Assembly (NCBI RefSeq): GCF_900115595.1
Contig: NZ_FOXA01000004.1
Coordinates: 124,001 to 188,000, forward strand
Source: Tranquillimonas alkanivorans
GTDB lineage: Bacteria; Pseudomonadota; Alphaproteobacteria; Rhodobacterales; Rhodobacteraceae
Length of the DNA: 64,000 bases
Direction: 5' to 3'
In this document: piece after piece, positions 9,471-19,931 of the stretch
Position numbering within the stretch: position 1 is the first letter of the stretch
How the letters are laid out: every line of letters starts with the position of its first letter
Translations under genes and position numbers: made by a program
The notes under the pieces: generated by a model
Databases searched by the model: none
What the model saw: only the letters and a program-made list of their open reading frames with translations
Told to the model about the DNA's origin: nothing

Positions 9471-9548
9471 GTTCGGTTGATCTGCCGCATTGACCGGGCC
9501 GGCGGGCGAAGGCATCTGAAGCCCGACACACGATTTCGGAGGAGCTTC

Positions 9549-10916
9549 ATGCCCACCCGCCGCACCTTCCTGACCGGAACCGCCGCACTTCTGACGGTGC
9601 CCTCCGTCTCGTTCGCCGGAGGTGCGAACGAACTTCGCGCCGCCGCTTCACGCATCCAACTGGCGCCCGAGGGCTACGGCAGGACGGACGTCTGGACGTA
9701 TGACGGGCAGGTGCCGGGGCGCGTGCTGCGGCTGCGCCAGGGCGAGCGGCTGGAGACGACGCTGGTCAACGACCTGCCGCAGCCCACGACCGTGCACTGG
9801 CACGGAATCCGCCTGCCCAACGGGATGGACGGCGTGCCGGGCATGACTCAGGACGCCGTCGCGCCTGGTGGGCGCTTCGACTATGCTTTCTCCGTGCCCG
9901 ACGCGGGGACGTTCTGGTACCACCCGCATGCCAACTCGGCCGAGCAGATCGGCCGCGGGCTGTCCGGCGTGCTGGTGGTGGACGAGGCCGAGGCGCCGGA
10001 GGTCGACCGCGACGAGGTGATCCAGCTGTCGGACTGGCGCATGACCGAGGATGCGCAGATCGACCCGTCTTTCGGCGCGATGCACGACATGTCACATGCC
10101 GGGCGGCTGGGCAACTGGATCACCGTCAACGGCAACGGCGCGCTGTCGAAGCCCGTGCGCGCGGGGGAGCGGCTGCGCCTGCGGCTTGTGAACACGGCGA
10201 CGGCGCGGGTCTTCGCGTTGCAGCTTCAGGGGCTTGAAGGCTGGGTGATGGCGGTCGACGGCATGCCGCTGGACCAGCCGCGCACGGCAGGTGAACTGCT
10301 GCTGGGCCCCGCGCAGCGCGCCGATCTGATCGTGGACGTCACCGCCGCGCCGGGAGAGGAAGCCTTCCTCGTCTCGTACGAGCGCAACGGGGGCTACGCC
10401 GTCACCGCCTTCCCGGTCTCCGGCGAGGCTGCGCAGGGACGCCGGGCTGCCCCGAAGGCGCTGCCGCCGAACCCGGTCCCCGAGCCGGTCCTGGGCGAGG
10501 GGCGCACGGTGGCGATGCCGCTTGAAGGCGGGGCGATGCGGGGGCTGCAGAGCGCGTCTTACGAAGGCCGCAGGCTCGACTGGCGCGCGCTGGTCCAAAG
10601 TGGGCAGTTCTGGGCAATGGGCGGCGTCGCGGGCATGCCCGACGCGCCGCTGGTCGAGGCCGCGCGGGGCGAGACGATCCGCATCCCGATGGAGAATCGC
10701 ACCATGTTTCCGCACGCCATGCACCTGCACGGCCACCACTTCCGCGAGATCGGGCCGGACGGGCAGGCGGGGCCGCTGCGCGACACGACGCTGATCCAGC
10801 CGGGCGAGACGCGCGAGATCGCCTTCGTCGCCGACAACCCCGGCGACTGGATGCTGCACTGTCACATGCTGTCGCACCAGATGTCCGGCATGGGCACGTG
10901 GATACGGGTCGCCTGA
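9549..10916 (+). CDS. multicopper oxidase, Tat-exported
   Basis: 455 residues. The amino end MPTRRTFLTG with a hydrophobic stretch and AGG/AFAG-like cleavage region resembles a twin-arginine signal, so a folded copper protein in the periplasm is expected. All copper-binding motifs are present: HWHG (83-86), WYHPH (123-127), HAMHLHGHHF (near 385) and HCHMLSHQMSGM (near 440), the last carrying the type 1 Cys-His and Met. It is a three-domain laccase/CueO-like enzyme that oxidises Cu(I) or organic substrates while reducing O2 to water. There is no methionine-rich segment like that of CueO, so a copper-tolerance role is not certain. GGAGGAG precedes the ATG. Single gene. Confidence 0.93.
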   Translation: MPTRRTFLTGTAALLTVPSVSFAGGANELRAAASRIQLAPEGYGRTDVWTYDGQVPGRVLRLRQGERLETTLVNDLPQPTTVHWHGIRLPNGMDGVPGMTQDAVAPGGRFDYAFSVPDAGTFWYHPHANSAEQIGRGLSGVLVVDEAEAPEVDRDEVIQLSDWRMTEDAQIDPSFGAMHDMSHAGRLGNWITVNGNGALSKPVRAGERLRLRLVNTATARVFALQLQGLEGWVMAVDGMPLDQPRTAGELLLGPAQRADLIVDVTAAPGEEAFLVSYERNGGYAVTAFPVSGEAAQGRRAAPKALPPNPVPEPVLGEGRTVAMPLEGGAMRGLQSASYEGRRLDWRALVQSGQFWAMGGVAGMPDAPLVEAARGETIRIPMENRTMFPHAMHLHGHHFREIGPDGQAGPLRDTTLIQPGETREIAFVADNPGDWMLHCHMLSHQMSGMGTWIRVA

Positions 10917-11053: not shown

Positions 11054-12121
11054 TCAGTTCGGGCTGTCCGCGGCGCGGCTGGCCTCGATCTCCTGCTCGA
11101 CCGTCTCGACGGTCGAGGTCATGGCTCCGAAGATCGCCTCGCCGCCGTCGACGTTCTGCTGGAACCAGTCGTAGACGGGGGAAGCGGCGTCGCGGAACAT
11201 CTCTTTTTCTTCCGGGGTCGGCACGTAGATGTCGCCGCCGGCGGCCAGGAAGTCCTCGTAGGCCTGGATCGACTTGCGCTTGGGCGAGGCGAAGGTCGCC
11301 TGCTGGAGGGCGTAGAAGCCGTCGATCACCACGCGCTGCAGATCCTCGGGCATCGAGGTGAACGCCTCGTTGTTCATGAACCATAGCGCGCCCATGTAGG
11401 CATGGCCGTCAAGCGTGAGGTATTTCAGCCCGGCATCCGGGAACTTCATCGACATGATGTCGGTGATGCCGTTCTTCGACCCCTCGACGACGCCGGTCTG
11501 GAGCGACGTGAAGAGCTCGGGCCACGGGATCGGCGTGGGCGAGGCGCCGAGCGCGCTGACCAGCTCCTGTGGGAGGTCGGCGACGACGGTGCGGATCTTC
11601 ATGCCCTCAAGGTCCGAGGGCTGGGTGACGCGGCCTTGCGTGTTGGCGAAGTTGCGCCAGCCGCCGGTGTTGCCCACGGTCATCAGCCGGATCGCGCCCT
11701 GCGAGTTTTCGAGCGTCATGTCCTTCATGGCCTGCATGAACTCGGTGTCGTTCTGCAGCACGGCTTCGGCCACGCGGTCGTTCGACATCAGGTAGGGCAG
11801 GTCGAGTACCTGCACGAACGGGAAAATCCCCGCCGCGCCGCCCGAGGTCGAGATGTAGATGTCGATCGAGCCGTCGGCGACGCCCTGAAGGCATTCGGCT
11901 CCGTTCGAGCAGAGCTGCGTGCCCATGAAGATCTCGACGCCGATGGCGCCATTCGACGCCTGCTCGACGAAGTTCTTGAAGACCACGAGCCCGTCGTAGT
12001 CCTCGTCGTTCTCGTTGGAGTTCGCGGTGGCGCGGAGCGTGTACTCCTGCGCCGCGGCGGCCACGGCGGTCCCCGCGAGCATCGCCGCTACGGTGAGCGA
12101 CTTGAGCGTTGCCTTCAGCAT
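11054..12121 (-). CDS. dctP: TRAP transporter substrate-binding protein (DctP family)
   Basis: 355 residues with a Sec signal peptide (about 1-24, ending VAAAAQE). The mature part has the TRAP extracytoplasmic receptor fold: the GMKIRTVVADLPQELVSALGASPTPIPWPELFTSLQTG region, including the arginine that normally binds a ligand carboxylate or other anion. It captures an acidic solute in the periplasm and hands it to DctQM. AGGGAGG precedes the start. Last gene of the minus-strand run dctQ-dctM-dctP. Note two cysteines in the loop CSNGAEC (about 72-78) that could form a disulfide. The solute is unknown; neighbours point to a sulfonate or sugar-derived anion. Confidence 0.93.
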   Translation of the reverse strand: MLKATLKSLTVAAMLAGTAVAAAAQEYTLRATANSNENDEDYDGLVVFKNFVEQASNGAIGVEIFMGTQLCSNGAECLQGVADGSIDIYISTSGGAAGIFPFVQVLDLPYLMSNDRVAEAVLQNDTEFMQAMKDMTLENSQGAIRLMTVGNTGGWRNFANTQGRVTQPSDLEGMKIRTVVADLPQELVSALGASPTPIPWPELFTSLQTGVVEGSKNGITDIMSMKFPDAGLKYLTLDGHAYMGALWFMNNEAFTSMPEDLQRVVIDGFYALQQATFASPKRKSIQAYEDFLAAGGDIYVPTPEEKEMFRDAASPVYDWFQQNVDGGEAIFGAMTSTVETVEQEIEASRAADSPN

Positions 12122-12155
12122 GTTACTTGCCTCCCTTGGGTTTGCTGAAAAATCG

Positions 12156-13622
12156 TCAGTTCACGAAGCCCGTCAGGCGCGGGATCGTCATCGAAATCGC
12201 CGGGACATAGGTGATCAGGAAGATCACCAGCACCTCCATGGCGAGAAACGGCAGGATGGCCCTTGCGATGCTCTCGACCTTCTCGCCCGAGACGGACGAG
12301 GCGACGAAGAGCACCAGGCCCATCGGCGGGGTGGCGAGGCCCACGGTGAGGTTCACGCTCATGATGATCGCGAAGTGGATCGGGTGCACGCCGAGGTCGG
12401 TGAAGATCGGCCCCAGGATCGGTCCGAGAATGATGATCGCCGGGCCCGCGTCCAGGAACATGCCGACGACGAACAACAGCAGGTTGATCAGGAACAGCAG
12501 GATCAGCGGGTTCTCGGACAGCGACAGGATATAGTCGGCCAGGATCTGCGGGGCGTAGGACAGGCTGACCACGGTCTTGAAGGCCATCGCCGCCCCGACC
12601 AGCAGCAGGACCACGGCCGAGGTCATGGCCGCGCGCGAGAAGACCTCGGCCAGGTCCGCGATCTTGAGCGTGCGCAGGACGAAGAAGCCGACGATCAGGG
12701 CATAGGCCACGGCGATGGCGGCGGCCTCGGTGGGCGTGAAGATGCCGGCGAGGATGCCGCCGAGGATCAGGATCGGAGTTTGCAAAGGCACCACGGCACG
12801 TTTGCAAACCATCCGGACGTCGCGGCTGAGTAGCCGCCGCAACCCCAGCATCAACGCGTGCGCCGCAACGATGCCGCCCGCCAGCGCGAGCCACTGGCCG
12901 GTTGCGCTTTCCACCGGGACGAACGCCGACAGCAGCCAGCCCAGGTTCAGCCGGACGAGGACGAACGACACCCAGTATTCCAGCGCCGGAAGCTCGATCC
13001 CGCGCTGCACGATCCGCTCGGCCTTGGGCATGTCGTAGCGGTCGGCCAGCGCCCGGACCATGATCATCAGCGACAGGCCCACCAGCACGCCCGGCACGAT
13101 GCCCGCCAGGAACAGCGCCGCGACGCTTTCGCCCATGACGTAGGCATAGATGATCATGATGCCCGAGGGCGGGATGATGGGGCCGATGACGGACGAGGCG
13201 GCGGTGATCGCGGCGGCGAAGCGGCGGGTATAGCCCTGCTTCTCCATCGCCGGGATCAGCATCGACCCCAGCGCCGAGGTATCGGCCACGGCCGAGCCCG
13301 AGAGCCCGGCGAAGAGGATCGAGGACAGGACGTTCACGTGCGCCAGCCCGCCGCGCAGATGACCCATGATCGCCTGGGAGAACTCGACCAGCCGTTCGGT
13401 GATGCCGCCCTTGTTCATCAGCTCGCCCGCGAGCATGAAGAACGGGATCGCCATCAGCGGGAAGCTGTCCATCCCGTTATAGACGTTGCGGTAAAGCAGG
13501 GTGATGTCGCGCTCCTGCCCGTTCAGCCACAGCAGGACGCCGGGCGCGGCGAGCAGGCCGAAGAACACCGGCAGGCCGAGGATCAGGAAGCCCAGGAAGA
13601 CGGGAAGGAACCAGATCAGCAT
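12156..13622 (-). CDS. dctM: TRAP transporter large permease (DctM family)
   Basis: 488 residues, the sodium-driven transport subunit. Typical signatures are present: MAIPFFMLAGELM, LAHVNVLSSILFAGLSGSAVAD, PIIPPSGIMIIYAY, GIFTPTEAAAIAVAYAL and MGLVLFVASSVSG. It is about 60 residues longer than usual because of an insertion between residues about 195 and 265 that includes an extra hydrophobic stretch (WLALAGGIVAAHALMLG) with basic flanks. The insertion lies where the two halves join. It starts 4 bases after the dctQ stop and is followed by dctP. Confidence 0.93.
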   Translation of the reverse strand: MLIWFLPVFLGFLILGLPVFFGLLAAPGVLLWLNGQERDITLLYRNVYNGMDSFPLMAIPFFMLAGELMNKGGITERLVEFSQAIMGHLRGGLAHVNVLSSILFAGLSGSAVADTSALGSMLIPAMEKQGYTRRFAAAITAASSVIGPIIPPSGIMIIYAYVMGESVAALFLAGIVPGVLVGLSLMIMVRALADRYDMPKAERIVQRGIELPALEYWVSFVLVRLNLGWLLSAFVPVESATGQWLALAGGIVAAHALMLGLRRLLSRDVRMVCKRAVVPLQTPILILGGILAGIFTPTEAAAIAVAYALIVGFFVLRTLKIADLAEVFSRAAMTSAVVLLLVGAAMAFKTVVSLSYAPQILADYILSLSENPLILLFLINLLLFVVGMFLDAGPAIIILGPILGPIFTDLGVHPIHFAIIMSVNLTVGLATPPMGLVLFVASSVSGEKVESIARAILPFLAMEVLVIFLITYVPAISMTIPRLTGFVN

Positions 13623-13626
13623 CCGC

Positions 13627-14211
13627 TCACTCCGCCATGAGTTCTTCCTCGGGCGCGTGGAGCGGCTTGAGCTCCTCCCGGTGCCCGAGAAGGGTGATGA
13701 GCGAGCGCAGGATCAGCTCGACGTTCACGATCAGCAAGAGCACCACGCCCACCAGAAGCGAGGCCATCATCCAGCTGCGCGGCACCCGCACCCAGCCGTC
13801 GAGCCACGGCACCCAGAGCGAGGCGGTGGCGAACCGGCCCCCGAAGCCCGTCACCTCGGCCCAGCCGATCTGCACGGCGACGACCAGCACGAGGCCCGAG
13901 ATCAGCAAGAGGATCAGCGAGACGACGGCGGCGGCGCGGGCGGGCAGGGCCCGTTCGAACATGTCGATGGCGACGAAGCCGCCCCGGCGATAGGCCATCG
14001 GCGCGATCAGTCCCGTCATCCAGAGCATGCAGAACCGCGCGGCCTCGTCCGGCCAGGGCAGGGCGTTGTTCAGGACATAGCGGAAGAACACCTGCACCAG
14101 GATCGCCACGACCATCAGGCCGATGGCGACGACCGCCAGTGCCCGGCCGACGGGCAACACCCAGTCGTTCCAGGTCTGGAAGGGCCACAGCAGCCCCCGC
14201 AAGACGCCCAT
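13627..14211 (-). CDS. dctQ: TRAP transporter small permease (DctQ family)
   Basis: 194 residues, four membrane helices, the small subunit that pairs with DctM. Family pattern VFFRYVLNNALPWPDEAARFCMLWMTGLI (here at about 40-70) is clear. The start is set at 14211 because AGGGAGG lies 8 bases upstream; an in-frame ATG at 14238 would overlap that site. 69 bases separate it from the flavin reductase stop upstream, so it is likely in the same transcript as the monooxygenase genes. Confidence 0.92.
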   Translation of the reverse strand: MGVLRGLLWPFQTWNDWVLPVGRALAVVAIGLMVVAILVQVFFRYVLNNALPWPDEAARFCMLWMTGLIAPMAYRRGGFVAIDMFERALPARAAAVVSLILLLISGLVLVVAVQIGWAEVTGFGGRFATASLWVPWLDGWVRVPRSWMMASLLVGVVLLLIVNVELILRSLITLLGHREELKPLHAPEEELMAE

Positions 14212-14280
14212 GCGCCAATCCTCCCTGTCGGCCCCCATTTTCTTGTTGTATCGAGGGGCCTTATCCTTGTCACTCGGAAG

Positions 14281-14778
14281 TCAGTCGCCGCCGTGAAAGC
14301 GGCCGTAACGTCCTCCGTGGAACAGAAGGGGCGCCCCCTCCCGATAAGTGGCGGCCCGCACCCGGCCCACCACGATGGCATGATCGCCGCCCTCGTGGAC
14401 GGCATGGCGATCGCATTCGAACCGCGCCAGGCAATTGGCGATGAGCGGCGTGCCGCCCGTGCCCTCCTCCCAGTCCAGCGCGTCGAAGGCGGTGCCCTCC
14501 CGGGCGAAGCCCGAGCAGACCTCGTACTGGTCGTCGCCCATGACGTGGATCGCGAAATGATCGGCCTCGACGAAGGCGTCGAAGCGGCGCGAGGCGCGCG
14601 CCGGCGACCACAGCACCAGCGGCGGGTCGAGCGATAGGCTCGAGAAGCTGTTGGCGGTGATACCCAGCGGACCGTGGTCCGAGTGCGTGGTGATGACGGT
14701 GACGCCCGTGGCGAAGCGGCCGAGCGCGTCGCGAAAGGCGCGCGCGGTCTCCGGTCCGGGCGTGAAGCGGTCTGTCAT
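14281..14778 (-). CDS. NAD(P)H:flavin reductase of a two-component monooxygenase
   Basis: 165 residues, flavin_reductase-like domain (FMN-binding split barrel). Visible family features: ALGRFATGVTVITT, GITANSFSSLSLDPPLVLWS and the closing YREGAPLLFHGGRYG. It would reduce FMN with NAD(P)H and pass it to the LLM monooxygenase two genes upstream. The start is the ATG at 14778 with GGAGG six bases upstream; an earlier ATG at 14796 is less well placed. It lies 20 bases after the aldo/keto reductase stop, so the three enzymes form one unit. In sulfo-SMO clusters the matching gene is smoA; the equivalence is inference. Confidence 0.9.
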   Translation of the reverse strand: MTDRFTPGPETARAFRDALGRFATGVTVITTHSDHGPLGITANSFSSLSLDPPLVLWSPARASRRFDAFVEADHFAIHVMGDDQYEVCSGFAREGTAFDALDWEEGTGGTPLIANCLARFECDRHAVHEGGDHAIVVGRVRAATYREGAPLLFHGGRYGRFHGGD

Positions 14779-14798
14779 CGATCCTCCGTCTGCCATGG

Positions 14799-15701
14799 TC
14801 ACGGCACGTCGTGACCGAGGGCGAGAGTATAGAGCTCGAACCACGTCTGGCGATCCATCTCGATGCGCGCGGCGTCGGAAAGCTGGCGGATGCGGTCCAG
14901 CGTGTTGGTGCCCATCACCGGAAGGATGCCCGAGGGATGGCGCAGAAGCCACGCGACGGCGACGGCCGACATCTCGGTGTCCTGTTCATGCGCGATCTCG
15001 GCCAGCCGGGTGCGCAGATGACCATGCCCGGCCTTGCCCGTCATCAGGTTGCCGCCGCCCAGGGGCGACCATGCCATCGGGGGCAGGCCGCGTTCCTGCA
15101 GGAAGGCGAGGTCGCCGTTGGTGAACGGCGCGATGCACGACAGGCTCATCTCGATCTGGTTCGTGGCGAGCTGCGTCTTCATCGCGGATTGCAGCAGCGT
15201 GAAGTCGTGCGGCTTGAAGTTCGACACGCCCACCGCGCGCACCTTGCCCGAGGACACGAGGTCGTCGAGCGCGGCGCCCGTCTCGTGATGGTCCATCAGC
15301 GGATCGGGGCGGTGGATGAGCAAAAGGTCGATCTTCTCGACCCCCATCAGCCGCAGCGAGGCGTCCACCGACTCCTCGATGTGCCTGCGCGAGGTGTCGT
15401 AGTGCTTGATCCGCGCCTTGCCTTCGTGCCGGCCCATCCCTTCGACGATATCGCACTTGGTGACGATCTCGATCCGGTCCTTCAGGTCCGTCGTCAGCGC
15501 GTTGCCCAGGATCTCTTCTGCCATGTAGCCGCCGTAGATGTCGGCCTGGTCCATCGTGGTGATGCCCTGCTCGAGGCACGCCTCGATCTTGGCCTGCACG
15601 TGGGCGGGAGAGGTGTCCTTGTCGTCGCCCAGCCGCCACATGCCATAGACGATGCGCGAGAAGCTCAGGTCGTCGGTGATCGTGACGCGGTCCATGGTCA
15701 T
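14799..15701 (-). CDS. aldo/keto reductase (YdhF-like)
   Basis: 300 residues, (beta/alpha)8 NAD(P)H reductase. The catalytic tetrad is visible: D (in TTMDQADIYGG, with the tyrosine in IYGG), lysine in EIVTKCDI, and histidine in LLLIHRPDPLMD. The overall pattern, including the end ALGHDVP, follows E. coli YdhF closely. Start ATG 15701 overlaps the upstream stop (TGATG), so translation is coupled to the monooxygenase. Reducing an aldehyde made by oxidative desulfonation would fit: in the sulfo-SMO pathway SmoB reduces 6-dehydroglucose to glucose. The substrate here is not shown by sequence alone. Confidence 0.92.
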   Translation of the reverse strand: MTMDRVTITDDLSFSRIVYGMWRLGDDKDTSPAHVQAKIEACLEQGITTMDQADIYGGYMAEEILGNALTTDLKDRIEIVTKCDIVEGMGRHEGKARIKHYDTSRRHIEESVDASLRLMGVEKIDLLLIHRPDPLMDHHETGAALDDLVSSGKVRAVGVSNFKPHDFTLLQSAMKTQLATNQIEMSLSCIAPFTNGDLAFLQERGLPPMAWSPLGGGNLMTGKAGHGHLRTRLAEIAHEQDTEMSAVAVAWLLRHPSGILPVMGTNTLDRIRQLSDAARIEMDRQTWFELYTLALGHDVP

Positions 15702-16858
15702 CAGCGGCGGTCTCCTGCCCCCAGCGGGGTCTTCGGTGTCTCGGTCGGCACGCGGCCGTACTCGTGCGGCAGCGAGCATGTCTTGAGGTTCGGAAGCACC
15801 TTGGACCCGAAGTGGCGGCATTCGTCCAGATGCGGATAGCCCGAGAAGATGAAGGCGCGGATGCCCATCTTCTTGTACTCTTCGATCTCGCTCATCACCT
15901 GGTCGGTCGATCCGACGAGCGCCGCGCCGCAGCCCGACCGCGCGCGGCCGATGCCCGTCCACAGGTGCGGCTCGACATAGCCGAACTGATCGGCCAGTTC
16001 GCGCGCGCGGGCCTGGTGGCTGACGCCGAGCGACGTGGAGTCGTGCGCCCGGTCGCGGATCAGCTTGCCGTATTCGTCGTCGAGCTTCGAGACGAGGTGC
16101 TCGGCGTATTCCTTCGCCTCGGCCTCGGTATCGCGAACGATCATGTGGACGCGCAGGCCGTAGTCGAGCGTCCGGTCGTAGCGCGCCGCCACTTCGTGCA
16201 CGGCCTTCATCCGCTCGGCGATCTGCTCTTTCGGCTCGGGCCACATCAGGTACACGTCGCAGTGTTGCCCGCATAGCTCCAGCGCGTGGGGGCTGTAGCC
16301 GCCGAAATACAGAAGCGGGCCGCCGTTCTGCTGATAGGGCTTCGCCGGATCGGTCCATACGCCTTTGAAATCATAGACTTCGCCGGGATAGTTTATTTCA
16401 TCCTGCGTCCAGGCCTGCTTGAGGATCTCCACCACCTCGCGGCTTCGCTGGTAGCGGAAGGCGCTGTCGGCCTTCTCGCCCGGGAAGTCCGAGGAGATGA
16501 CGTTCAGCGTCAGCCGGCCCTTGAGCATGTGGTCGAGCGTGGCGACCGTGCGCGCCAGCATGATCGGCTGCATCTCGCCGCAGCGGATGGCGGCAAGCAT
16601 GTTGATCCTGTCGGTGATCGGCGCGCAGCCGGCCACGAAGCTCAGCGTGTCCTGGCCCACCTGGTAGGACGAGGGGCAGAGGATGTTGCGGAAGCCCTGG
16701 CGCTCGGCCTCCTGCACGATCGAGGAGCAGTGGTCCCACGACGATTTCAGCGCAGGGTCGGGCACGCCGAGATATTCGTAATCGTCCGAGCAGAGGGCCG
16801 CGAACCACGATACCTCGGCGGCATCGAGTTCTGCGGAGGTGACGGGGACGACGGTCAT
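15701..16858 (-). CDS. SsuD-like LLM-class flavin-dependent monooxygenase
   Basis: 385 residues, luciferase-like TIM barrel close in length and pattern to alkanesulfonate monooxygenase SsuD. The SsuD active-site residues that bind the sulfonate and flavin peroxide have counterparts: R236 and H238 (GLRVHMIVRD), R307 (GIGRARSGCGAALVG) and Y341 (SGYPHLDE). The SsuD Cys54 position is not conserved (the region 61-70 reads CPSSYQVGQD, with a cysteine seven residues earlier). It uses reduced FMN and O2 to cleave a C-S bond to an aldehyde and sulfite. First gene of the minus-strand unit; a perfect FNR-type box lies 49 bases upstream. In a sulfo-SMO reading it would be SmoC; alternatives are other alkanesulfonates or sulfur compounds. 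Confidence 0.9.
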   Translation of the reverse strand: MTVVPVTSAELDAAEVSWFAALCSDDYEYLGVPDPALKSSWDHCSSIVQEAERQGFRNILCPSSYQVGQDTLSFVAGCAPITDRINMLAAIRCGEMQPIMLARTVATLDHMLKGRLTLNVISSDFPGEKADSAFRYQRSREVVEILKQAWTQDEINYPGEVYDFKGVWTDPAKPYQQNGGPLLYFGGYSPHALELCGQHCDVYLMWPEPKEQIAERMKAVHEVAARYDRTLDYGLRVHMIVRDTEAEAKEYAEHLVSKLDDEYGKLIRDRAHDSTSLGVSHQARARELADQFGYVEPHLWTGIGRARSGCGAALVGSTDQVMSEIEEYKKMGIRAFIFSGYPHLDECRHFGSKVLPNLKTCSLPHEYGRVPTETPKTPLGAGDRR

Positions 16859-16906
16859 TTCGAATCCTCCATGATGCCCGGGATTAGCCCTTGCGTAGCA
16901 TCCGCC

Positions 16907-16932
16907 TTGATGTGCATCAATAGTGTATCAAT
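16907..16932. promoter_or_regulatory. operator in the monooxygenase/GntR divergent promoter
   Basis: TTGATGTGCATCAA (16907-16920) is a perfect TTGAT-N4-ATCAA inverted repeat, identical to the FNR/CRP-family consensus. The right half is repeated 11 bases on: CATCAAT at 16915 and TATCAAT at 16926. It sits between the start codons of the LLM gene (16858) and the GntR gene (16947), so it can control both. It could bind the GntR protein itself or an FNR-type regulator; the sequence cannot decide. Confidence 0.65.
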
Positions 16933-16946
16933 TTTCCGGTGACCCC

Positions 16947-17645
16947 ATGTCGGACCCCGGCGCAGCGCCGCTCTACATGCAGATCAGCGACCTTCTGGTG
17001 CGTGACATCGCGGCCGGCCGGCTTCTCGAGGGCGAGCGTCTGCCGCCCGAGCGGGAGATGGCGGCCAGCTATGGCATCTCGGTCGGAACCCTGCGCAAGG
17101 CGCTGGCCGACCTTTCGGCGCGCGGGATGCTGGAGCGGCGGCAGGGGTCGGGCAACTACATCGGCCAGACGCGCGGCGCAGGTGGGCCCTATGCCTTCTT
17201 CCGGCTGGAGCTGGTCGAGGGCGGAGGGCAGCCGACGGCGCAGGTGCTGGACGTGCAGTGCCTGCCCAAGGCGAATGACATGCCCGAGTTCGGCCCGCAC
17301 GCCGAGGCGCACCGCATCCGCCGCGTGCGCAGTATCGGGGGCATTCCCTGCGTGCTCGAGGAGATCTGGCTTGACGCAACGTGGGCCCCGGAGGTGCGCG
17401 CGGAGGATCTGTCGGACTCGCTCTACCACTATTACAGGAGCCGCCTGGGCCTCTGGATCACCCGGGCCGAGGACCGGGTGGGGCTGGCCGACGCGCCCGG
17501 CTGGGACGCGGCGACGACGCTGACGGCGGGAGCCCCCTGCGGCTTCGTCGAAAGGGTTTCCTGGGCGCAGACGGGGGCGCGGGCCGAATTCTCGCGCACG
17601 TGGTTCGATCACCAGAAGGCGCGCTATGTGCAGCGCATCAAGTAG
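16947..17645 (+). CDS. GntR-family regulator with UTRA ligand domain
   Basis: 232 residues. Winged helix at about 8-75 (LYMQISDLLVRDIAAGRL, LPPEREMAASYGISVGTLRKAL) and a UTRA sensor domain from about 85 to the end. UTRA domains of the HutC subfamily bind sugars or amino-acid-derived ligands. The start is the ATG at 16947, with GGTGA before it; a GTG at 16923 lies inside the operator and is unlikely. It is divergent from the monooxygenase unit and 8 bases upstream of the Gfo/Idh/MocA gene, so it probably represses both sides until its inducer appears. Confidence 0.92.
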   Translation: MSDPGAAPLYMQISDLLVRDIAAGRLLEGERLPPEREMAASYGISVGTLRKALADLSARGMLERRQGSGNYIGQTRGAGGPYAFFRLELVEGGGQPTAQVLDVQCLPKANDMPEFGPHAEAHRIRRVRSIGGIPCVLEEIWLDATWAPEVRAEDLSDSLYHYYRSRLGLWITRAEDRVGLADAPGWDAATTLTAGAPCGFVERVSWAQTGARAEFSRTWFDHQKARYVQRIK

Positions 17646-17653
17646 AGGCAGGA

Positions 17654-18748
17654 ATGGCTGACGTCGTGAATTACGGGATCATCGGCTGCGGCATGATGGG
17701 GCAGGAACACCTGCGCAACATCGCGCTGCTACCCAATGCGCGGGTCGCTGCCATCTACGAGCCCGACGCCTACATGGCCGGCGCGGCCAAGGCCATCGCG
17801 CCGAACGCGACTATGTATCATTCACTGTGGGACCTGCTGGCGCACGAGCCGCTCGATTGCCTGCTCATCGCCTCGCCCAACCACCTTCACGTCAGCCAGA
17901 TGGAGGAGATCGCCGCCCGCCGCCCGCTGCCATTGCTGGTGGAAAAGCCGCTCTATACCGAGCCGGGCGAGGTCGAGCGGCTGGAGGCCATCGCGCGCCG
18001 GTATCCCGCGCCGATCTGGGTGGCGATGGAATACCGCTACATGCCGCCGATTCAGACCTTCATCGACGAGGTCGAGCGCGCCACCGGCGGCGTCACCATG
18101 CTCACCATCCGCGAGCATCGTTTCCCGTTCCTGAAGAAGGTCGGCAACTGGAACCGCTTCAACCGCTGGTCGGGCGGCACGCTGGTCGAGAAGTGCTGCC
18201 ATTTCTTCGACCTCATGCGCCTGATCCTGAAGTCCGATCCGGTGCGGATCATGGCCAGCGCGGGGCAGGCGGTGAACCACCTCGACGAGCGCTACAACGA
18301 AGAGACGCCGGACATCTGGGACTCGGCCTATGTCATCGCAGAGTTCGCCTCGGGCGCCCGCGCCATGCTGGACCTGTGCATGTACGCCGAGGGCTCTCGG
18401 TACCAGGAGGAGATCACCGCCGTGGGCCCCAAGGGCAAGATCGAGGCGCTGGTGCCGGGACCGTCCCGCTTCTGGCCGACGCATCTGGGCGCGCCGCCGG
18501 TGCCGCAGGTCGTCGTCTCCCCGCGTGAGCCGAAGGGCCCGCAGACGGTCGAGATCCCCGTGGACCCGAAGCTGCTGGAGGCCGGGGACCACAACGGCTC
18601 GACCTTTTACCAGCACGTCCGCTTCAACGCGGTGGTCCAGGGGCGCGGCGACGTCGAGGTGACGGTCGAGGACGGCCGCCGCGCCGTGGCCATGGGCCTT
18701 GCAGCGCAGGAGGCGGCGAGCTTGGGAGAGGTGGTCCGGCTTGTGTAA
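17654..18748 (+). CDS. Gfo/Idh/MocA-family NAD(P)-dependent protein
   Basis: 364 residues. Amino-terminal Rossmann fold with GIIGCGMMG (8-16) and the family EKP motif at 97-99, then the alpha/beta carboxy domain with GGTLVEKCCHFFDLM near 180, where most dehydrogenases have an aspartate before the conserved histidine. Such enzymes are sugar dehydrogenases, but a branch works as NAD-dependent glycosidases, including sulfoquinovosidases. It follows the GntR gene by 8 bases with AGGCAGG before the start, so it belongs to the same regulon as the divergent monooxygenase/TRAP genes. Release of a sulfosugar from its glycoside would fit, as no classical glycosidase is nearby. Substrate unproven. Confidence 0.9.
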   Translation: MADVVNYGIIGCGMMGQEHLRNIALLPNARVAAIYEPDAYMAGAAKAIAPNATMYHSLWDLLAHEPLDCLLIASPNHLHVSQMEEIAARRPLPLLVEKPLYTEPGEVERLEAIARRYPAPIWVAMEYRYMPPIQTFIDEVERATGGVTMLTIREHRFPFLKKVGNWNRFNRWSGGTLVEKCCHFFDLMRLILKSDPVRIMASAGQAVNHLDERYNEETPDIWDSAYVIAEFASGARAMLDLCMYAEGSRYQEEITAVGPKGKIEALVPGPSRFWPTHLGAPPVPQVVVSPREPKGPQTVEIPVDPKLLEAGDHNGSTFYQHVRFNAVVQGRGDVEVTVEDGRRAVAMGLAAQEAASLGEVVRLV

Positions 18749-19103: not shown

Positions 19104-19931
19104 ATGGCTAAATATTTCTCTCCCACCGGTGGCTTGCCGCCGCAGTCGGACCTCTCCACCGGCCGGGCCGCGTTCACCCCGGCCTATGCCGTCATCCCCC
19201 ACGGCGTGATGCGTGACATCGTGACCTCGAAGCTGCCGTTTTGGACCGGCATGCGCGCCTGGGTCATCGCGCGGCCGATGACGGGCTTCGCCGAGACGTT
19301 TTCGCACTATATCGTGGAACTTGAGCCCGGCGGCGGAAGCGAGCGGCCGGAACTGGCCGAGGAGGCGCAGGGCGTGGTCTTCGTCACCGCGGGGCGGCTG
19401 AAGCTGCACCTCGACGGGCGCGAACACCTGCTCGAAGCGGGGGGATACGCCTATATCGCACCCGGCGAGGACTGGCAGCTGCACAACGCAAGCGACGATC
19501 GCTGCACCTTCCACTGGGTGCGCAAGGCCTATGAGACGGTGGACGGCCTGCCGATGCCCGCAAGCTTCGTGACCTCGGACGCCGAGGTCGAGCCGATCGC
19601 CATGCCCGACACGGACGGCGGCTGGGCGACGACGCGCTTCGTGGACCCCGACGACCTGCGCCACGACATGCACGTCAATATCGTCACCTTGCAGCCGGGT
19701 GCGGTGATCCCGTTCCTCGAGACGCACGTGATGGAACACGGGCTTTACGTGTTGCAGGGCAAGGGAGTCTACCAGCTCAATAAGGACTGGGTCGAGGTCG
19801 AGGCGGGCGATTACATGTGGTTGCGCGCCTTCTGCCCGCAATCGTGCTATGCCGGCGGGCCCGAGCCGTTCCGTTACCTGCTTTACAAGGACGTGAACCG
19901 GCACATGCCGCTCAGGCCCGGCGGACGCTGA
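19104..19931 (+). CDS. allE: (S)-ureidoglycine aminohydrolase-like bicupin
   Basis: 275 residues, two cupin domains. The carboxy domain carries the Mn-binding pattern of ureidoglycine aminohydrolase (PFLETHVMEHGLYVLQGKG, with Glu and two His, followed by GDYMWLRAFCPQSCYAGG and the ending YLLYKDVNRH). The enzyme releases ammonia from (S)-ureidoglycine in purine/allantoin breakdown. No other ureide genes are in the window, so this may be an orphan copy. The ATG at 19104 lacks a strong Shine-Dalgarno. It converges with the antiporter gene, with three bases between stops. Symbol given by family resemblance only. Confidence 0.85.
   Translation: MAKYFSPTGGLPPQSDLSTGRAAFTPAYAVIPHGVMRDIVTSKLPFWTGMRAWVIARPMTGFAETFSHYIVELEPGGGSERPELAEEAQGVVFVTAGRLKLHLDGREHLLEAGGYAYIAPGEDWQLHNASDDRCTFHWVRKAYETVDGLPMPASFVTSDAEVEPIAMPDTDGGWATTRFVDPDDLRHDMHVNIVTLQPGAVIPFLETHVMEHGLYVLQGKGVYQLNKDWVEVEAGDYMWLRAFCPQSCYAGGPEPFRYLLYKDVNRHMPLRPGGR

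Follow-up and report, generated by a model that had tools for sequence, protein, structure and literature searches.

The membranes of plants and algae contain a sulfur sugar, sulfoquinovose (SQ), of which bacteria of the Roseobacter clade are important marine consumers. The SQ monooxygenase (sulfo-SMO, or sulfo-ASMO) pathway of Agrobacterium tumefaciens was reportedly described by Sharma et al. 2022, and sulfo-SMO clusters of the Roseobacter clade with a glycosidase of family GH188 are said to have been described by Liu et al. 2023. Here, a stretch of 64,000 nucleotides of Tranquillimonas alkanivorans (contig NZ_FOXA01000004.1, positions 124,001 to 188,000 of the forward strand; hereafter the window) was analysed, in which eight genes at 11054–18748 very likely form a sulfo-SMO gene set for the use of SQ and its glycosides, judging from homology and gene content. 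The cluster is well supported as one of the published type, with no new enzyme set. The enzyme route is already known, and the less-documented part is the importer, a tripartite ATP-independent periplasmic (TRAP) transporter, DctPQM, which very probably imports SQ or its glycosides. The smo cluster of A. tumefaciens presumably includes a GH31 sulfoquinovosidase and an exporter, whereas the present one has a GH188 enzyme and no exporter.

SQ production has been put at about ten billion tons per year (PMC10755693; here and below, a PMC number stands for passages of the paper concerned). The SmoA, SmoB and SmoC set of A. tumefaciens and its chemistry are, by homology, like those predicted here (PMC9594981, PMC12890257), but the sulfoquinovosyl-glycerol transporter of that species is of the ATP-binding cassette (ABC) type (PMC9594981), where the present locus has TRAP genes. 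More generally, SQ uptake has been linked to transporters of the ABC type, to which the characterised SQ-binding proteins belong (PMC12421959). The Roseobacter-clade sulfo-SMO system with GH188 (PMC10755693) comes from the same clade and has the same enzymes, and no enzyme difference from it was found. The same two steps are assigned to SquD and SquF in the sulfo-ASMO system of Novosphingobium (PMC9594981), although the luciferase-like monooxygenase homologues on Novosphingobium plasmids are only ∼48–49% identical to the SmoC of the window. The sulfo-SMO pathway is recognised by SmoB and SmoC being encoded together (PMC13372026), often with SmoA adjacent, and all three were found side by side at the locus. 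Its features are as follows.

11054–12121, minus strand: dctP, TRAP solute-binding protein (PF03480; best PDB match 118 bits), predicted SQ or sulfoquinovosyl-glycerol receptor
12156–13622, minus strand: dctM, TRAP large permease (TIGR00786 over cut-off, PF06808)
13627–14238, minus strand: dctQ, TRAP small permease (PF04290)
14281–14778, minus strand: smoA, flavin reductase (PF01613; best PDB match 4xhy, 168 bits), predicted supplier of reduced flavin mononucleotide (FMN) for SmoC
14799–15701, minus strand: smoB, aldo/keto reductase (66.3% identity with 7bby), predicted to convert 6-dehydroglucose to glucose
15701–16858, minus strand: smoC, predicted SsuD-like FMN-dependent SQ monooxygenase (84.4% identity with 7oh2)
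16907–16920, no strand: inverted repeat TTGATGTGCATCAA, exact match between the divergent smoC and gntR, candidate GntR operator
16947–17645, plus strand: gntR, GntR-UTRA regulator (PF00392, PF07702); the start is ATG 16947 or possibly GTG 16923
17654–18748, plus strand: predicted GH188 (SqgA-type) NAD+-dependent sulfoquinovosidase of the Gfo/Idh/MocA fold (65.6% identity with 8zn9)

All eight genes were confirmed, each with the expected Pfam domain over its cut-off. The order of transcription on the minus strand is smoC-smoB-smoA-dctQ-dctM-dctP, with a TGATG overlap joining smoC and smoB and a gap of 20 bases between smoB and smoA, and the divergent plus-strand pair consists of gntR and, 8 bases behind it, the Gfo/Idh/MocA gene. 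The architecture proposed in a first-pass annotation, which had been made from the letters of the window, was thus recovered in full. The three TRAP genes are adjacent on one strand with PF03480, PF04290 and PF06808 over their cut-offs, while the ABC importer and GH31 enzyme of an Agrobacterium-type cluster were not found at the locus, none of the eight genes being an ABC component. For comparison, the best 80 of at least 579 confirmed SmoC relatives among the matches listed were inspected with their surroundings, genes there being called as homology matches or longest open frames, short of full annotation. Homologues of at least half length lay near SmoC for GntR and SmoB in 79 of the 80 loci each, for GH188 in 77 and for SmoA in 69; because these counts are so high, the gene order is far beyond chance. 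One genome of the same genus carries SmoC, and in a second (G001) no SmoC was found, the best match reaching only E 2.8e-4. The source genome itself comprises 4.54 Mb in 92 contigs.

The identity of the two central enzymes was assessed by comparison with PDB structures. SmoC showed 84.4% identity to 7oh2 and 82.6% to 7olf, which we take to be SmoC, as we take 7bby and 7bbz to be SmoB; all of these structures reportedly go back to Sharma et al. 2022. The bit scores were 752 and 746 against 7oh2 and 7olf versus 190–202 against the SsuD-type structures 1m41, 1nqk and 7jv3. SmoB scored 423 bits against 7bby, with 66.3% identity, versus 218–229 bits against YdhF-type structures. Both enzymes therefore lie nearer to these four structures than to SsuD-type or YdhF-type ones, as had been supposed from the sequence. 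The nearest structure of SmoA, a PF01613 protein, was generic (4xhy, 168 bits).

An operon of the SsuD type, scavenging sulfur from alkanesulfonates, was considered as another explanation, since among the luciferase-like monooxygenases SmoC falls into the SsuD-like branch and retains the presumed functional Arg/His/Arg/Tyr positions of SsuD type as R236, H238, R307 and Y341. This explanation was rejected and is hardly credible. On the SsuD equivalog model TIGR03565 the protein scored 244.5 bits, less than half of the cut-off of 518.2, and thus falls outside SsuD; SsuD-type structures drew little more than a quarter of the bits that 7oh2 and 7olf did, and the cluster also encodes a reductase of the SmoB type and an enzyme of the sulfoquinovosidase type. 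Residue conservation was read from 112 sequences (the window and 111 loci), of which those passing a coverage rule were kept (103 for GH188, 84 for SmoC and 70 for DctP) and the others dropped. Loss of the SsuD Cys54 position had been taken to argue for a substrate other than simple alkanesulfonates. The absence is real, but the position is also occupied by a residue other than Cys in 7oh2 and 7olf, and by Gly in 84/84 aligned SmoC homologues. It is therefore a mark of the family and not of this locus or of a new substrate, and on the question of substrate it does no more than agree with SQ.

The Gfo/Idh/MocA protein showed 65.6% identity (539 bits) to 8zn9 and 48.3% to the SqgA structure 8qc3, with 360–364 bits against 8qc2 and 8qc3. 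Structures 8QC2, 8QC3, 8QC5, 8QC6 and 8QC8 are those of SqgA by Kaur et al. 2023, on which family GH188 was founded (PMC10755693). In ArSqgA, the sulfonate is contacted by Arg166, Leu170 (backbone) and Lys172, and the sugar by Lys107, Tyr136, Glu189, His193 and His321 (PMC10755693). By an alignment mapped by hand, Lys107, Tyr136, Arg166, Leu170, Lys172, Glu189, His193 and His321 correspond to K98, Y127, R156, L160, K162, E179, H183 and H313 here; Glu163 of Kaur et al. is one residue off the aligned Glu, which is E154 here. These nine positions are invariant in 103/103 aligned homologues, so that fold family, catalytic residues and sulfonate contacts are all like those of SqgA, although GH188 enzymes from SMO-type and Embden-Meyerhof-Parnas (EMP)-type clusters form separate groups. 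The protein thus appears to be an NAD-dependent sulfoquinovosidase of the kind that had been proposed for it. That it is instead a sugar dehydrogenase is very unlikely: its best NCBIfam match is inositol 2-dehydrogenase, at 98 bits versus a cut-off of 355, as compared with 539 bits to 8zn9, 364 bits to 8qc3 and the conservation of the nine GH188 residues, and Kaur et al. 2023 report that GH188 is near-universal where marine Roseobacter bacteria carry a sulfo-SMO cluster (PMC10755693). The first-pass annotation had also presented this enzyme as a replacement of GH31 in a variant cluster. The enzyme is indeed present and GH31 (PF01055) had 0 matches across the source genome (a control was positive in 6/14 genomes), but the novelty was overstated: GH188 in Roseobacter sulfo-SMO clusters is already published, and the enzyme part of the cluster is therefore known.

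The exchange of the ABC importer for a TRAP transporter, which had likewise been proposed, proved to be real and common, DctP or DctM following SmoA in 40/80 SmoC loci (39 by a stricter coverage rule). Such loci include Rhizobium halophytocola, Pannonibacter and Roseibium, and the contigs of two, L044 and L079, stop within the TRAP genes. The same eight genes were found on a megaplasmid of Ruegeria sp. TM1040 and on a plasmid of Roseivivax sp. THAF197b, and SmoC of at least 75% identity on 11 plasmid records (H1–H11), among them Ruegeria, Roseivivax, Salipiger and Paracoccus; the cluster can therefore be plasmid-borne. Linkage across the family was surveyed in 295 genomes drawn evenly, one per genus, with thresholds of E≤1e-150 for SmoC, E≤1e-120 for the DctP orthologue and E≤1e-100 for GH188; related genera are not independent. 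SmoC was found in 123 genomes, the DctP orthologue in 100 and GH188 in 141. SmoC and DctP were both present in 75 genomes (71 of these pairs within 8 kb), SmoC alone in 48, DctP alone in 25 and neither in 147. SmoC and GH188 occurred together in 117 genomes, in 113 of them within 9 kb. For GH188 and DctP, both were present in 94 genomes, GH188 alone in 47, DctP alone in 6 and neither in 148 (Fisher p 2e-33, a value that treats related genera as independent, which they are not). The next DctP paralogue of the source genome scored 102 bits versus 786.

The 25 loci with the DctP orthologue and SmoC below threshold comprise 17 that are sulfo-EMP-like, 6 with remnants of the SMO type and 2 without an adjacent SQ gene. 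The first group may be read as sulfo-EMP-like clusters from their content: next to the TRAP genes each encodes an SQ-isomerase-like protein, a PfkB kinase and an EMP-type GH188, and 16/17 also a LacD-type aldolase. Over all 25 loci, mutarotase was found in 10, aldehyde dehydrogenase in 10, hydroxyacid dehydrogenase in 13 and the sulfopyruvate decarboxylase subunits in 6 and 5. One such locus, L163:2389-17150, and 16 further loci in L144–L168 carry the distinct GH188 group. The isomerase of L163 scored 252 bits against the NCBIfam SQ isomerase, under the 700-bit cut-off, and both of its sulfopyruvate decarboxylase subunits were over their cut-offs, which suggests that in some of the sulfo-EMP-like loci SQ may be broken down via sulfolactate and sulfopyruvate inside one cluster. 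Among the SMO remnants that keep TRAP, smoC is absent but smoA, smoB, gntR or GH188 remain in L148, L149, L155, L157 and L165, and smoC of L164 lies in two reading frames. In L146 and L162, which have no SQ gene beside TRAP, GH188 is on another contig of each genome.

Of 398 genomes drawn from across the phylum, 14 gave a match at E≤1e-90. In L199:2975-10295, from outside the class, a DctP of 66–68% identity is joined by GH188, GntR, a SmoB-like reductase and a TauD-family dioxygenase, a set that resembles the SQ dioxygenase (sulfo-SDO) pathway and makes the locus a candidate cluster for it. L201 is EMP-like with a DctP of 50% identity. L200, whose DctP is also 50% identical, encodes a short-chain (SDR) dehydrogenase, an IlvD/Edd dehydratase, an HpcH/HpaI aldolase, a succinate-semialdehyde-dehydrogenase (SSADH)-like dehydrogenase and TauE. 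It resembles an Entner-Doudoroff-type (sulfo-ED-like) cluster, though a pentonate route could fit: the dehydratase passes the cut-off for L-arabinonate dehydratase, which suits a pentose route, and the Gfo/Idh/MocA protein retains all nine GH188 residues, which suits SQ. The cores joined with DctPQM in the Rhodobacterales and beyond would thus be a monooxygenase, an isomerase/aldolase and apparently a dioxygenase, with a relative of the transporter in an Entner-Doudoroff-like cluster.

The histories of importer and glycosidase were compared in 39 SMO and 17 EMP-like loci holding both GH188 and DctP (L201 left out). In quick trees, GH188 fell into two groups by pathway with support of 100, whereas EMP-type DctP as a single group was rejected, at a cost of 119.7 log-likelihood units and p-AU 0.00067. 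A more careful DctP tree, with 81 rows, set the 11 paralogues from own genomes apart (100/99; 11/16 paralogue loci passed the length rule, and a long-branch warning applies to the paralogues, L200 and L201); in it the SMO and EMP rows were mixed, well-supported branches requiring the EMP label to change 7 times or more. Because DctP is mixed while GH188 is split by pathway, importer and catabolic cores appear to have recombined, the glycosidase having stayed with its core. The TRAP transporter was assigned to SQ or SQ glycosides mainly because this substrate is what the differing cores share. We consider it rather probable that DctPQM is a dedicated importer of this kind, a pathway-independent module that has been combined again and again with SQ cores of unrelated mechanism, GH188 remaining with its own.

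It is very improbable that the cluster serves a sulfosugar other than SQ, such as sulfofucose or another 6-deoxy-6-sulfohexose. Sulfofucose is indeed catabolised in a Paracoccus (PMC12421959), but by a cluster with an ABC transporter and different enzymes (PMC12421959). The 84% identity to 7oh2 and the invariance of the GH188 residues that touch SQ hydroxyls in crystal structures also speak for SQ, as does the sharing of the TRAP genes with clusters that encode an SQ-isomerase-like protein (252 bits, as above, and so under its 700-bit cut-off).

The binding site of DctP was read from an alignment with IseP, the isethionate-binding TRAP protein (8t9t, ∼101 bits; PMC11668362), by hand. Arg156, Arg177, Asn217 and Trp200 of IseP correspond to R156, R177, N217 and W200 of DctP, all invariant in 70/70 homologues, including the Arg/Arg/Asn triad expected for an anionic ligand. 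N151-T152-G153-G154-W155 and D39-E40-D41 were also invariant. The IseP pocket further includes His244 and Asn98 (PMC11668362), which are replaced by A245 and G95 in DctP; the far side of the pocket thus differs and may be adapted to a larger hydroxylated sulfonate.

Several observations weigh against the reading of the locus as a sulfo-SMO cluster with an SQ-importing TRAP transporter. The deposited names of 7oh2, 7olf, 7bby and 7bbz are generic, and their assignment to SmoC and SmoB is presumed. The cluster has no gene for a sulfite exporter, and the source genome no member of PF03601, to which the exporter next to the Ruegeria cluster belongs. The Arg set of DctP is general to carboxylate- and sulfonate-binding TRAP proteins and therefore no proof of SQ. 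The DctP orthologue is missing at E≤1e-120 in 48/123 SmoC genomes, so TRAP is not obligatory. Of the 80 SmoC loci, 18, all without TRAP, have a homologue of one particular ABC protein of the sugar-binding type, in some cases several kb off, and in the stretches covering the remaining non-TRAP loci no importer was identified.

Some of these points would also agree with a correct sulfo-SMO core beside a DctPQM that imports another compound (for instance a dicarboxylate, a sugar acid or a different sulfonate with hydroxyl groups), SQ entering otherwise. The same Arg/Arg/Asn set occurs in TRAP binding proteins for many carboxylates (PMC11668362), the SmoC genomes just mentioned manage without the orthologue, and the 50%-identical relative in L200 adjoins the gene over the L-arabinonate dehydratase cut-off. 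We regard this explanation as unlikely, though not negligible. All 100 DctP genomes carry SmoC (75), GH188 (22/25 of the others) or an adjacent SMO- or EMP-like gene (L149, L151, L165). The transporter is common to SMO-type and EMP-like clusters, whose shared substrate is SQ and among which a single EMP-type DctP group was rejected, and even the Gfo/Idh/MocA protein of L200 keeps the nine GH188 residues. Import of SQ or its glycosides thus remains the preferred function of DctPQM.

In the open literature, no TRAP importer of SQ was found named; this excludes Liu et al. 2023, Ma et al. 2025 and Sharma et al. 2022, which may show one. The word TRAP is absent from the texts of PMC10755693, PMC9594981, PMC12890257 and PMC13372026, figures and supplements lying outside this statement, and two papers in which both SQ and TRAP terms occur are, judging from the abstracts, about taurine-using gut bacteria.

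What was observed is the content and order of the genes, their homology, residues and linkage, and the pattern of the trees; all enzymatic steps of the following scheme are inferred. DctPQM would carry SQ or sulfoquinovosyl glycerol over the inner membrane, and the cytoplasmic GH188 enzyme would split the glycoside to SQ via transient oxidation by NAD+ at C3, as its homology and conserved active site suggest. SmoA would then reduce FMN, and SmoC, with FMNH2 and O2, would break the C–S bond to give sulfite and 6-dehydroglucose, a step predicted from the 84% identity to a structure taken to be SmoC. 6-Dehydroglucose would be reduced to glucose by SmoB and phosphorylated by a glucokinase encoded elsewhere, the gene for which was found in the source genome. 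For the oxidation of sulfite, the source genome encodes a sulfite dehydrogenase of the SorT type on a different contig, C49 (616.3 bits versus a cut-off of 570), which would carry out this step. The GntR-UTRA protein would repress both divergent units, and binding of SQ or of a derivative would relieve the repression. The repeat TTGATGTGCATCAA, exact at 16907–16920, is a candidate operator for it; with one mismatch allowed, it occurred 2 times in 64 kb versus 0.23 expected, and TTGAT-N2..5-ATCAA was found in 35/81 upstream regions, as counted without a shuffled control. A scan for promoters and terminators gave 2 and 2 sites versus 0.9 and 3.3 in shuffles.

Several neighbouring genes were also recorded. 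In both pathway types, a pair of divergent genes, one for a MauG-like di-haem cytochrome c peroxidase and one with Sel1 repeats, can be found a few kb or less from TRAP (for example L206:15252-17072 in Ruegeria sp. TM1040, and L163:6985-8295). The peroxidase was found in 19/40 TRAP-SMO, 1/40 non-TRAP SMO and 15/17 EMP-like loci, by a query whose N-terminus was trimmed because this stretch probably overlaps the divergent Sel1-repeat gene. The window has neither gene, and the pair of the source genome is on another contig (C49:189287-190558). Convergent to dctP is a multicopper oxidase gene (window 9477–10916), homologues of which were found in 0/80 SmoC loci at E≤1e-20. The GH188 gene adjoins a gene for (S)-ureidoglycine aminohydrolase (window 19104–19931). 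A functional tie of the latter to the cluster was rejected, as a homologue occurred in the stretches of only 2/80 SmoC loci (L030, L042). At L149:4131-5551, a homologue of this aminohydrolase gene abuts smoA-dctQMP; smoB, smoC, gntR and GH188 were unmatched there, which is deletion-like.

For Roseobacter bacteria, it is less clear how SQ or its glyceride enters the cell than which enzymes degrade it, and DctPQM offers a concrete gene that can be tested. Bench work would be most worthwhile on the assignment of the importer and on its use by several pathways. Found in 100/295 sampled genera and common to several SQ pathways, this TRAP clade may serve as a marker of SQ uptake that is independent of the degradation route.

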